Of a stretch of DNA of 38,965 nucleotides, positions 15,056-18,576 are shown one piece after another. This stretch comes from Vitreoscilla sp. GTDB taxonomy: Bacteria > Pseudomonadota > Gammaproteobacteria > Burkholderiales > Burkholderiaceae_C. Numbering within the stretch: position 1 is the stretch's first letter; the number at the start of each line of letters is the position of its first letter. The stretch spans positions 1-38,965 of the forward strand of contig JADMKA010000252.1 of NCBI GenBank assembly GCA_018780145.1, written 5' to 3'. The translations under genes and the position numbers were made by a program. Under the pieces are notes generated by a model. The model was not told the origin of the DNA, made no database searches, and saw nothing but the letters and a program-made list of their open reading frames with translations.

Positions 15056-16231
15056 TCAGGCCTCGCCGCCGCCGAGCTTGCGCACCAGCTTGCGCAGGCC
15101 CTTCATGCCGCGTTCGCTGTCGAGCGCGATGTCGGGCTCGCCACCTTCCACCGCCACGCTGTCGGCCACCACCAGGCCGTAGTTCAGCTGCCGGTGCATC
15201 GCGATGTCGGCGAAGCTGCGGCAGCGCTTGATGAAATCCGGGCTGTTGATCTCAATCACCGCGGTGCCGGGCCGGCAGTAGATCGCGTTGGTCAGGCCGG
15301 CGCCGTGTACGCCCACCACGAGCCGCGCCTGCGACATCAGCGCGATCTGCTCTGCCACCCCCAGCGGAGCGAAGGCCACCCGCTCCAGGCCGAGGCCGGC
15401 GAGCGCGTCGAGGATGCGGTCCTCGCCGATCAGCCGGCGCTTGGGCGCGTCCGCCCGGGAAATCAGGATGGCGCGGCCGGGGGGCACGAAGGGCTCGGTG
15501 GCCAGCCGCTCGTCCACGGCTTCGGCGAGCAGCGCGCTGCAGGCCTTCAGGCGGGAGCTGTGGGCGACGTGGTCCGAGTAGTCGGCGGTCTCGGTGGCGT
15601 CGACGAAGAACAGGCAGTGCTCGAAGCGCGTCAACTCGCCCGCGGTGATCTCGACCAGCGGCGCCAGTTCGGGCAGCAGCAGGGCCAGCGACTCGGTGAC
15701 GAAGTGGCGCGTTTCCTCGTCGAACAGCACGATGCGGTCGACCGTGACCCGGCCCTCGCGCATCGCGTCGCGCAGCGAGAACAGCCGCGGCATGATCTCC
15801 ACCGTCCAGTGGTAGTAGTTGCGGTAGCCGGCCTCGTGGATGATGGCCGTGGTGCCCGGGTAGAGCCGGGCACGCGCACCCGAGCGCTCGATCTTCTGCG
15901 CGATCCGGCCGACCAGGTCGCCCTTCTTGGCGGGCTTGGGCGGCAACGTGCCAGCGATGGGTGTGCCGCGGTGCCAGACCGAGCCCTTGAGCACGAGCAC
16001 GTCGTCCACCGCGAACAGCGAGTGCTCGCGCAACGGGAGGTCGCGCCGGTAGAGGTCGTCGAGCCAGGCGATGTCGCGTTCCAGCGCAGTGCTGTCCGCG
16101 GCAGGCTGCGCACGCAGGTCGCGGATCGGGAAGTGGTGGCGCCCCACGGTGGGCCGCAAGGGACGGCGCGTCAGCGGGATCTGGGTGATGCCGTCGCGCC
16201 CGAAGGGCGAAACCGGTTCGAGGTCATCCAT
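15056..16231 (-). CDS. Glycosyltransferase family 61 protein
   Basis: A 391-residue GT61 (DUF563, capsular polysaccharide biosynthesis type) enzyme. Typical features in order: GYRNYYHWTVEIMPRLFSL in the middle (Asn-Tyr-His-Trp core), RAILISRADAPKRRLIGED, and GVHGAGLTNAIYCRPGTAVIEI at about residues 304-325, the donor-binding HGAGL signature. It transfers a sugar to a surface glycan or glycoprotein; no signal peptide is seen, so it acts at the cytoplasmic face. The start is uncertain: ATG at 16231 is used, ATG at 16261 would add 10 residues, and a frame open to 16402 would run into the structured repeat element and is unlikely. A palindrome GCACTC-N6-GAGTGC (16298-16315) lies in its upstream region. 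Confidence 0.85.
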   Translation of the reverse strand: MDDLEPVSPFGRDGITQIPLTRRPLRPTVGRHHFPIRDLRAQPAADSTALERDIAWLDDLYRRDLPLREHSLFAVDDVLVLKGSVWHRGTPIAGTLPPKPAKKGDLVGRIAQKIERSGARARLYPGTTAIIHEAGYRNYYHWTVEIMPRLFSLRDAMREGRVTVDRIVLFDEETRHFVTESLALLLPELAPLVEITAGELTRFEHCLFFVDATETADYSDHVAHSSRLKACSALLAEAVDERLATEPFVPPGRAILISRADAPKRRLIGEDRILDALAGLGLERVAFAPLGVAEQIALMSQARLVVGVHGAGLTNAIYCRPGTAVIEINSPDFIKRCRSFADIAMHRQLNYGLVVADSVAVEGGEPDIALDSERGMKGLRKLVRKLGGGEA

Positions 16232-16344
16232 CTCAGTGGCCCGTGCCGCCGAGGCGGCCATTGCAACGCACGAATCGCGCGCAGCCGCTGATCGACCGCA
16301 CTCGGGCCTGAGTGCCTGTTCGTGCAGCGATGAGGTCGGCGCGA

Positions 16345-16449
16345 GCCGAGGCTGCCGGGTGACCGGCTCCGCGAATGTCCTCCGGCACTGGCCTCCGGCC
16401 ATCGCCTCCTCCTAATATTTCGCTGCGCCGGTCACCCGACATCCTCGGC
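16345..16449 (-). repeat. Structured repeat element, left copy
   Basis: Read on the minus strand from 16449 to 16345. Outer stem P1 pairs 16449-16429 with 16365-16345: 19 Watson-Crick pairs, one G.U and one A.G of 21. Next comes a 23-nt segment (16428-16406) containing GCGAAATATTAGGAGG. A small hairpin follows, TGGCC-GGA-GGCCA, then a 15-nt segment (16380-16366) containing GGACATTCGC. The GCGAA and TTCGC of the two segments can pair above P1. Both segments are identical to those of the right copy, while P1 and the hairpin differ in sequence but stay paired. Nature unknown: a structured RNA or a REP-like mobile DNA element. Confidence 0.7.
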
Positions 16450-16493
16450 AGTCCACCAGTCTTCCCCCGCGTTGCAGAACTCCGGCCGTGCCC

Positions 16494-16600
16494 GATCAGG
16501 ACGGTGGGGTGCTCTGCGCAGCGAAATATTAGGAGGAGCCGGCAGCCGCAGGCTGGCGGCGGGGGACATTCGCGGAGCAGAGTATCCCGGCGGCCTGATC
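16494..16600 (+). repeat. Structured repeat element, right copy
   Basis: Read on the plus strand. Outer stem P1 pairs 16494-16515 with 16579-16600: 17 Watson-Crick pairs, three G.U and two mismatches of 22, with an A.G at the eighth pair exactly as in the left copy. Then come the 23-nt segment (16516-16538, containing GCGAAATATTAGGAGG), the hairpin CAGCC-GCA-GGCTG, and the 15-nt segment (16564-16578, containing GGACATTCGC). The two segments match the left copy at all 38 positions. The G.U pairs are good pairs only on this strand (the complement would have A.C), which suggests the plus strand is the folded molecule here. Confidence 0.7.
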
Positions 16601-16689
16601 CCGCTCCAACTGTTGCGCAAGCGACTGGCCGCAATGTACCGATCGCACACCGTCGCGGCTCCAGACATGCAAGGTGTGCCGGGCGCACT

Positions 16690-18576
16690 TCAGATCTCGA
16701 CCTTGGCACCGAGCTCGACGATGCGGTTCGACGGCAGGTTCAGGAAGTCGGCCATGTCGGCCGCGTTGCGGTGCATGCTGGCAAAGAGTTTCTCGCGCCA
16801 CATCGACATGCCGTCGCCGAACGTGGGGATGACGGTGTCGCGGCTCAGGAAGTAGCTGGTGTCCATCTCGTCCAGTGGCACCCCGCGGCCCTCCAGCAGG
16901 CGCAAGGCCTCGGGCACGTCGGGGTCGTTCTTGAAGCCGAAGTTCAGCGACACCTGCCAGCAGTCGTGGCCCAGCGGTTCCATGGACAGGCGCTTGTCGA
17001 AGCCTATCCACGGGACCTCGTGGTGCCGCACATGGACGAACAGGTTGTGCTCGTGCAACACCTTGTTGTGCTTCAGGTTGTGCATCAGCGCATTGGGCGC
17101 AAGCCCTTCGTCGGCGACCAGGAACACCGCGGTGCCCGAGACGCGGACCGGCGGGCTGACGAACACCGCCTCCAGGAAGCCCTTCAGCTCGATGGCCTCG
17201 TCGCGCACCCGGTGCTGCATGATCGAGCGGCCCTGCTTCCAGGTCAGCATCAGCAGGAACATGCCGGCGCCGATGACCAGCGGGAACCAGCCGCCCGCCA
17301 GCAGCTTGAGCGTGTTGGACAGGAAGAAGGTGATGTCGATGACGAAGAAGAAACCGGTGGCCAGCAGGCACAGCGCCAGCGGGTACTTCCAGCCGTAGCG
17401 GATCACGTAGAAGGTCATCACCGTGGTGATGGTCATGTCCAGCGTCACCGCGATGCCGTAGGCCGAGGCCAGGTTCGACGAGCTCTTGAACAGCGCCACC
17501 GCCAGCACGATGAAGGCGTACAGCGTCCAGTTGATGAAGGGCACGTAGATCTGCCCGGTGTCGCGCACGGAGGTGTGGCGCACCGTCATGCGCGGCAGGA
17601 TCCCGAGCTGGATGGCCTGCTTGGTGACCGAGAAGGCCGCCGAGATCAGCGCCTGCGAGGCGATCACCGTGGCCGCCGTCGACAGGAACACCAGCGGCAG
17701 CCGGGCCCAGTCCGGTGCCATCAGGAAGAAGGGGTTGGCCACCGCCTCCGGGTTGGCCAGCAGCATCGCGCCCTGGCCGAAGTAGTTCACCACCAGGGCC
17801 GGCATGACCAGCCCGTACCAGGCGATGCGGATGGGCAGCGGGCCGAAGTGGCCCATGTCGGCATAGAGGGCCTCGCCGCCGGTCACGCACAGCACCACGG
17901 CACCGAGCGCGATGAAGGCGATGACGGGCTGGGCGACGAAGAAGCCAAACGCATAGGCCGGGTTGAGCGCCACCAGCACATCCGGATTGGCCAGGATGTG
18001 CGGCAGGCCCAGCGCGATCAGCACGAAGAACCAGACCAGCGTGATCGGGCCGAAGAACTTGCCGATGCCACCGGTGCCGAAGCGCTGCACCGCGAACAGC
18101 GCGGTCAGCACCAGCAGGGTGATCGGGATCACCAGATCGTGCAGGCCGGGCGCGACGACCTGCAGGCCCTCCACCGCGGAGAGCACCGAGATGGCCGGCG
18201 TGATCACGCCGTCGCCATAGAAGACCGCCGTGCCGAACAGGCCCACCACCATCAGCACCCGGCGCAAGGTGGGGCGGTCTTTCACCGCGGTGGTGGCCAG
18301 CGCCAGCATGGCGATCAGGCCGCCTTCGCCGTTGTTGTCGGCGCGCAGGATCAGCAGCACGTACTTCAGCGAGACGATGGTGGTCATCGTCCAGAAGATC
18401 AGGCTCAGCACGCCCAGGATGTTGTCGTCGCTGGCCGGCACATGGCCGGCGTGGAAGACCTCCTTCAGCGCGTAGAGCGGGCTGGTGCCGATGTCGCCAT
18501 AGACGACGCCCAGCGCCGCCAGGGTCAGCGTGGCGATCGCGGGCAGCGAACGGGATTCGTGATGGGGTGCACTCAA
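16690..18576 (-). CDS. kup: Kup-family potassium transporter
   Basis: A 628-residue Kup/HAK/KT potassium uptake protein, a proton-coupled K+ importer of the inner membrane. The family signature [19 protein letters not shown] is at residues 23-41. About 12 membrane helices follow up to residue about 460 ([50 protein letters not shown]), then a cytosolic C-terminal domain of about 170 residues ending [12 protein letters not shown]. The start is a TTG at 18576: no ATG or GTG in the right place gives the full N-terminus, and the next in-frame Met would lose the signature. No clear Shine-Dalgarno is seen, so expression may be low. It is divergent from the large glycosyltransferase gene with 131 bp between starts. 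Confidence 0.95.

Follow-up and report, generated by a model that had tools for sequence, protein, structure and literature searches.

An inverted pair of large hairpins, repeated in a Vitreoscilla sp. genome and its relatives, may be a small mobile element read as folded single-stranded DNA

Two inverted copies of a structured element occupy one gap between genes in a 38,965-nucleotide contig of Vitreoscilla sp. (here "the window", meaning the whole stretch of DNA that was analysed). They sit between the end (16690) of what we take to be a kup-like potassium transporter gene (16690-18576, minus strand) and the start of the next minus-strand gene below. The open reading frame listed as 15056-16402 extends into the first copy, and we infer that a start near 16231 is likelier. 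Why should such a gap hold two folding sequences on opposite strands, and in which molecule do they fold? The answer we favour, with a probability of roughly 60%, is a small non-autonomous mobile DNA element on a REPIN-like plan, whose ends are two different large imperfect inverted hairpins that are read as folded single-stranded DNA (ssDNA) by an enzyme supplied in trans.

A sequence-only reading had described copies of 105 nt (minus strand) and 107 nt (plus strand), 44 bp apart, and both were present. Hairpin A (16345-16449, 105 nt), with an A-type end (GCCGAGG...CCTCGGC), folds on the minus strand and comprises a P1 5' arm (16427-16449), a 5' core (16407-16426), an apical hairpin (16384-16406), a 3' core (16368-16383) and a P1 3' arm (16345-16367). 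Hairpin B (16494-16600, 107 nt), with a B-type end (GATCAGG...CCTGATC), folds on the plus strand and has the same parts at 16494-16517, 16518-16537, 16538-16560, 16561-16576 and 16577-16600, respectively. The linker between them spans 16450-16493 (44 bp). The covariance model R1, described below, matched hairpin A at 16342-16451 (112 bits) and hairpin B at 16493-16602 (106 bits).

The inner segments of 23 nt and 15 nt are identical between the hairpins, as had been claimed, while the stems have diverged in a compensatory manner. A comparison of 38 pairs between A and B gave 12 in which both bases differ and pairing is standard in each copy, 3 with a single base replaced, 19 identical ones and 4 for which at least one copy has a non-standard pair, so that the earlier figure of at least seven compensatory changes was cautious. 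The apical hairpin differs between copies as described (TGGCC/GGCCA and CAGCC/GGCTG), and both retain an A.G at the eighth P1 pair, after seven outer pairs. The strand bearing AGGAGG (TATTAGGAGG) was predicted to fold at -68.7 (A) and -63.8 kcal/mol (B), with z-scores of -8.4 and -7.5, a stability that none of 200 shuffles reached. The opposite strands fold less stably (-61.8 and -47.6 kcal/mol; z -8.5 and -4.9).

The absence of further copies from every genome had been named as a refuting condition, whereas many were observed. The host genome holds seven full-length matches, the window copy included, and one more interrupted by another element, giving eight (near-)full copies. The others are 94-98% identical to the window unit. 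One half copy and several fragments were also detected, four of these cut by contig ends. When the eight copies were aligned, the hairpins were best conserved and similarity outside them faded over about 45 bp. Three shortened host copies (L009, L018 and L024) have junctions, judged by eye, at short direct matches inside the hairpins; they look like the internal deletions expected from replication slippage over folded ssDNA hairpins.

The suggested search with a covariance model recovered a family of relatives. R1 was built from 14 hairpins, chosen by motif from loci found by DNA similarity, and genomes were represented by one per species. With the host included, R1 matched 17 of 40 genomes drawn from close relatives and 65 of 150 genomes (61 of 141 genera) drawn from the family. 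A draw from the class gave 3 of 229 genomes, namely the host, one further family member and one genome outside the family, and this difference from the family draw indicates that R1 does not match at random. These values must be interpreted with their scope in mind: the family draws are samples, and the family and class surveys used stricter filters that lose weak matches. Carriers among the matches listed include Hydrogenophaga, Rubrivivax, Rhodoferax, Variovorax, Aquabacterium, Caldimonas, Polaromonas, Ramlibacter, Sulfurisoma, Ideonella and a Rhodocyclales bin. The individual loci given here from a carrier scan by core pattern (120 stretches), and the individual matches from the surveys of relatives, family, PF01797 and the second repeat discussed below, are likewise those among the matches listed. 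The element is common in bacteria of soil and water that are related to Burkholderia. It was also found on three Variovorax plasmid records, each larger than 1 Mb. Viral carriage was set aside, given that phage records showed no match (blastn, E 0.01) and a single viral contig was positive in one exact-pattern scan. On this IMG/VR contig the hairpin (L265, 5467-5573) lies at the end, and either a chimera or carriage may account for it.

Empty orthologous sites had been proposed as the sign of mobility, and they were found in two settings. In the host, map and the gene downstream of it, presumably glnD, are hundreds of bp apart with the element between them. In 13 readable genus relatives the same gap is 0 to about 25 bp (start codons by eye; two further loci were unreadable), and the element's core string is absent from it in all 13. 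In Variovorax sp. J22R187, the element stands between an amidohydrolase gene and a hydrolase gene that are 2 bp apart in V. paradoxus VAI-C, where the flanks are 88% identical and the site is empty. Mobility is thus well supported. Filled sites in both settings hold additional DNA beyond the hairpins. The filled Variovorax site is about 323 bp longer than the empty one, which exceeds two hairpins and a linker, and the element thus seems to extend some 40-50 bp past each hairpin. In the window, outer segments similar across the eight genomic copies and less conserved than the hairpins lie at 16296-16344 (left) and 16601-16645 (right), with approximate limits set by eye, and these probably belong to the inserted unit.

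These outer segments could point to a different architecture, a MITE with outer inverted repeats that is moved by a DDE transposase and in which the hairpins are passengers or regulators. Similar segments do flank host copies on both sides, with degenerate outer repeats, and one filled/empty Variovorax pair shows a possible 4-bp CTCC target duplication. Such a scheme gives strand-specific folding no role, however, and the outer segments are the least conserved part whereas the hairpin unit is kept at 94-98%; we regard it as quite unlikely. Polaromonas is listed among MITE hosts in the accessible part of a review (PMC10969869). The idea that the outer motif is itself a frequent, separate repeat used as a target was rejected, as only 11 loose matches were found genome-wide, five of them beside these elements. 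A scan of the window for a similar outer-motif pattern gave 0 matches.

Does the inverted arrangement hold beyond the window? Neighbouring hairpins were analysed in 160 sources with 307 matches, with those less than 350 bp apart counted as close. Among 130 distinct close neighbours, 118 were in -/+ order, 7 in +/-, 3 in ++ and 2 in --; the 12 that are not -/+ count against a doublet-ended element. Spacings of distinct -/+ pairs (n=121) cluster at 29-58 bp (91) and 87-119 bp (17). The two hairpins of a doublet also tend to differ in their end type, one with an A stem (GGCCAAGG-type) and the other with a B stem (GGATCAGG-type). This combination was observed in 79 of 116 doublets, compared with 43.7 when partners were shuffled (0/2000 as high), with the caveat that the A and B consensus strings were selected after the sequences had been seen. 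Away from contig or locus ends, 38 hairpins had no -/+ partner within 3 kb; among them are hairpins in +/- order and some others that show partner remnants. Doublets of opposite (+/-) order occur at L138 and L139, and L137 carries an alternating -+-+ array that is BIME-like.

Placement relative to genes was assessed with a codon-based predictor made for the analysis rather than with annotation. No doublet fell inside a called gene. The 100 doublets flanked by called genes were in 69 codirectional, 30 convergent and 1 divergent settings, while 923 background adjacent gene pairs from the same loci were 673 codirectional, 127 convergent and 123 divergent. The median distance to a called gene 3' end was 39 bp. 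In codirectional settings, the A-type hairpin is in sense orientation in 43 cases and the B-type in 16 (p=0.0006; e.g., L178 and L220). A purely mobile role does not predict this preference, and we found no explanation for it. Of the 140 Pfam families represented among the 150 nearest genes, the 25 that occurred most often were transport, metabolic and sigma-factor families, with no transposase among these 25.

A position past gene ends that is almost never divergent would suit bidirectional intrinsic terminators. Yet the stems are not followed by a T run (T is 5-19% in the first twenty positions), for which reason an intrinsic terminator was rejected, and the hairpins contain a large conserved internal loop; this explanation can hardly be upheld.

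The same placement is compatible with a structured RNA, such as a 3'-UTR element, small RNA or attenuator, that was repeated and spread by chance. The sense preference of the A-type hairpin speaks for it as well, as do the covariation and the G.U-type pairs. In the R1 alignment of 14 hairpins, two-sided changes were observed in 30 of 35 pairs, and the 110 two-sided cells compare with 35.5 in shuffles (0/500 as high) and 13-29 in slid controls. A lack of covariation, which would have refuted the sequence-only reading, was therefore not what we found.

The type of mismatch indicates which strand folds. Counting used 307 matches, and 9 rows were dropped beforehand: 8 of 75 in one scan (opposite-strand echoes and one partial match) and 1 of 182 in another (an echo). 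Twelve of 299 distinct hairpins were excluded from the pair count because they were too short or had fewer than 15 of 22 Watson-Crick pairs. In the remaining 287, non-Watson-Crick P1 pairs read on the AGGAGG strand were G.T in 536 cases, A.G in 98, A.C in 22 and C.T in 11. Like-with-like P1 pairs numbered 96 over the same 287 hairpins, mostly G.G where isolated. Since an A.C here would be a G.T on the other strand, the AGGAGG strand is the one kept foldable. The proposal that wobble pairs are of the G.U type on one folded strand alone, first made for the two window copies, holds for the family. Training of R1 used the purine strand, and a slight preference of the model for G.T over A.C matches is possible. 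Some loci represent the same place twice (e.g., L062/L214 and L070/L252); the internal-loop and spacing counts take distinct sequences, and the initial tabulation of neighbours over the 160 sources does not. In the loci from the carrier scan, the search pattern predetermines part of the core, which biases the GAAG/TGA coupling but leaves the A/G switch and the counts of loops and stems free.

The strand bias is the same whichever way the hairpin faces its neighbours. In codirectional settings, G.T exceeded A.C by 123 to 4 in 67 hairpins antisense to the flanking genes and by 118 to 3 in 68 sense hairpins. Equal bias in both orientations speaks for a function of the element as such and not for one in the mRNA of adjacent genes.

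Inside the hairpin, GGRGG stands on both sides of the internal loop. The middle bases, readable in 266 of the 299 distinct hairpins (33 were excluded because the core was unreadable), were A/G in 204, G/A in 53, A/A in 9 and never G/G, so that 257 of 266 carry A/G or G/A; hairpin A of the window belongs to the nine with A/A. An A/G hairpin was combined with a G/A hairpin in 19 of the 90 doublets in which both hairpins were readable, and this purine switch has thus probably happened often. It fits a turnable A.G pair or a GGA-type purine fold, and the choice between them is undecided. The sequence-only reading had singled out a conserved, apparently unpaired AGGAGG as striking. The motif lies in a purine-rich internal loop and is not invariant, its middle base being A or G. 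The hint of ribosome binding that AGGAGG might give is weakened because that base alternates together with the opposite side of the loop.

Triloops cap 207 of the 255 hairpins whose tip could be read (44 of 299 excluded). C(GNA)G accounts for 163 of these 207 and the mirror type TNC for 2; as background, C(GNA)G on either strand was found in 31 of 670 other palindromes from the same loci. The commonest tetraloops, GTCA, GCCA and GGCA, make up 12 of 38 and are GNNA but not GNRA, and UUCG occurs once. In the part of PMC4686876 available to us, GNA and GNNA loops are described as forming extraordinarily stable DNA mini-hairpins, a finding that the authors present as their own discovery.

Such loops weigh against a structured RNA, as do the two hairpins on opposite strands, the strand bias shared by antisense hairpins and the lack of an Rfam match. 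In the window, Rfam gave 0 matches above the gathering threshold, in agreement with the earlier statement that no known riboswitch or ribozyme could be recognised; below threshold, miRNA precursor models fell over the hairpins. We consider a structured RNA unlikely. RNA is nonetheless not excluded, given that C(GNA)G loops and G.T pairs are possible in RNA. The earlier inference of selection on a folded single strand, whether RNA or ssDNA, and not on duplex DNA is supported; that the strand is ssDNA is our inference, favoured by the equal bias of sense and antisense hairpins and by the DNA-type C(GNA)G loops.

Which enzyme could move such an element? Inverted doublets, intergenic placement, the alternating array at L137 and recognition of a folded strand would all be accommodated by a true REPIN or BIME moved by a RAYT (Y1 HUH) transposase. 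REP hairpins, as far as the consulted parts of PMC6006769 and PMC2817692 go, measure 21-65 nt, carry a 5' tetranucleotide foot (GTAG/GTGG or CGTC) and have RAYT partners. The hairpins studied here share with REP, REPIN and BIME sequences the imperfect palindromes, the inverted doublets between genes, the multiple copies and the strand-specific folding. They differ in their length of roughly 90-130 nt (against the 21-65 nt given in PMC6006769, seen in part), their large purine-rich internal loop and their two end classes, as well as in showing neither a conserved tetranucleotide foot nor an association with Y1 genes. In 297 flanks, the commonest base of every column past the stem stayed at or below 56%; the columns were aligned from the end of the model, and a foot of variable position might have escaped notice.

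Across 150 genomes, PF01797 (E 0.001) was detected in 49 of 65 hairpin-positive and 63 of 85 hairpin-negative genomes (Fisher p=1). Six genomes with 15-25 hairpins (G051, G091, G105, G128, G133 and G173) were outside the 112 PF01797-positive ones. None of 42 PF01797 loci examined (13 from the genus and 29 new from family genomes; 24 from hairpin-positive genomes) had a hairpin within 1.5 kb, a result that covers those 42 loci and not the remaining PF01797 matches. The check for RAYT genes in the host and its relatives thus gave no association with the known REP partner gene; RAYT was rejected as the mover, and a true RAYT-driven REPIN appears very improbable. The host's sole PF01797 match at E 0.001 is at L088 (1456-2154; G000:C158), with no hairpins near and beside a gene that we take to be dgt-like. 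In the accessible portion of a REP paper (PMC3733652), none of five host-group names was found.

Two further systems use folded ssDNA. The ends of IS200/IS605 elements and PATE-type derivatives are subterminal hairpins recognised as ssDNA, with both on the same strand; hairpin ends acting as ssDNA would be common to them and the present element, whose hairpins are instead inverted. Where the sequence between hairpins was read, it showed no transposase gene. Integron attC sites are imperfect hairpins of about 100 nt, of which one folded strand is used, with a variable tip and core-site sequence at the stem foot. Our hairpins resemble attC in size, in folding on one strand and in the variable tip, and differ in that the stem foot covaries where attC keeps core sites, and in showing no association with intI. 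The integrase family TIGR02249 (E 1e-40) was found in 35 of 65 hairpin-positive and 38 of 85 hairpin-negative genomes (p=0.32). An attC or integron cassette identity was rejected on the covarying foot pairs together with this lack of association, and the integron integrase was rejected as the mover on the latter. Four genomes (G051, G099, G108 and G133) had neither PF01797 nor TIGR02249 at these thresholds.

Some doublets are spaced widely enough to enclose genes. In G020 (L121 2171-5217) the hairpins enclose 2833 bp of 47-58% GC within surroundings of 64-70% GC, encoding an ATPase that passes the ORC-CDC6-like and AAA_16 Pfam cut-offs and a 290-aa ORF. The hairpins of G133 (L295 3261-4384) enclose 884 bp of lower GC (49-59%) with a 184-aa ORF. 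Further wide spacings of 777 bp (L122), 309 bp (L123) and 2162 bp (L246) were recorded; L246 may be ordinary sequence between separate hairpins, as it shows no GC drop and contains a flavin-reductase gene. The 290-aa, 184-aa and L122 ORFs had no Pfam match above cut-off, comparison of the cargo with PADLOC gave only weak matches, all of the ATPase, and no relatives of the G020 ATPase were confirmed in viral contigs. The evidence for cargo carriage, with the G020 and G133 doublets as possible mobile cassettes, is suggestive only, and a defence-related function of the cargo is a guess.

A second palindromic repeat accompanies part of the family. It reads GCCCGGACACAAACAGTCC, 3 nt, GGACTGTTTGTGCCTGG and CGA, followed by a variable hairpin (examples at L008 1728-1800, L135 4637-4702 and loci L322-L351), and was found in 52 of 399 family genomes and 28 of 141 genera, with 0 matches of a control pattern. 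Inspection of 30 loci by eye showed it in about 15 of them nested in the hairpin 3' core, always at the same position; elsewhere it stands alone. At L332 and L327 it seems to lie inside reading frames, which from their peptides we assume to be a group II intron reverse transcriptase and an IS transposase, respectively. Three head-to-tail copies, 80 bp apart, occur at G131:C257 22777-22975.

This second repeat may be BRE. According to the part of PMC3110155 available to us, BRE is a tandem repeat of 75-91 bp that occurs in many copies between genes, and also within them, in Betaproteobacteria that include Polaromonas and Rhodoferax. The twin-hairpin element is likewise a multi-copy intergenic betaproteobacterial repeat, but BRE differs in its length of 75-91 bp, its tandem arrangement and its presence inside genes, and fits the nested repeat better. 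The element might be the same motif as Burkholderiales-1, a candidate motif reported in 2010 from Burkholderiales whose RNA nature the authors marked with a question mark, according to the portion of PMC2864571 that was accessible. A literature search with core strings returned only papers on other subjects, judged by title.

We hypothesize that a mobile element with these ends would work as follows. When the strands part, each hairpin would fold into a long interrupted stem with a purine-rich internal loop and a C(GNA)G-capped tip, and recognition would be of this single-stranded folded form, on the strand that carries the hairpin's own AGGAGG. Each DNA strand would thereby carry one recognisable hairpin towards its 3' side. 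An unidentified enzyme, which we infer to act in trans, may bind the conserved purine core and cut in or near the outer ends, the exact positions of which are unresolved, and the unit would then be transferred to intergenic sites, in most cases shortly after a stop codon. That folding serves mobilisation is itself inferred. Whether this amounts to a new class of mobile element, with twin large ssDNA hairpin ends, a purine-purine switch in the recognition loop, an enzyme other than RAYT, IS605 or integron-integrase types and cargo genes between the ends, is a tentative proposal with the odds somewhat against it.

In this family, a single DNA hairpin fold comes in hundreds of naturally occurring versions, with features that an ssDNA-handling enzyme could read: the use of one strand, the purine core, the C(GNA)G tip and the mid-stem mismatch. 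It is also a warning that strong covariation with G.U pairs need not imply a functional RNA. Identifying the enzyme would uncover another way for short DNA to spread in bacterial genomes.
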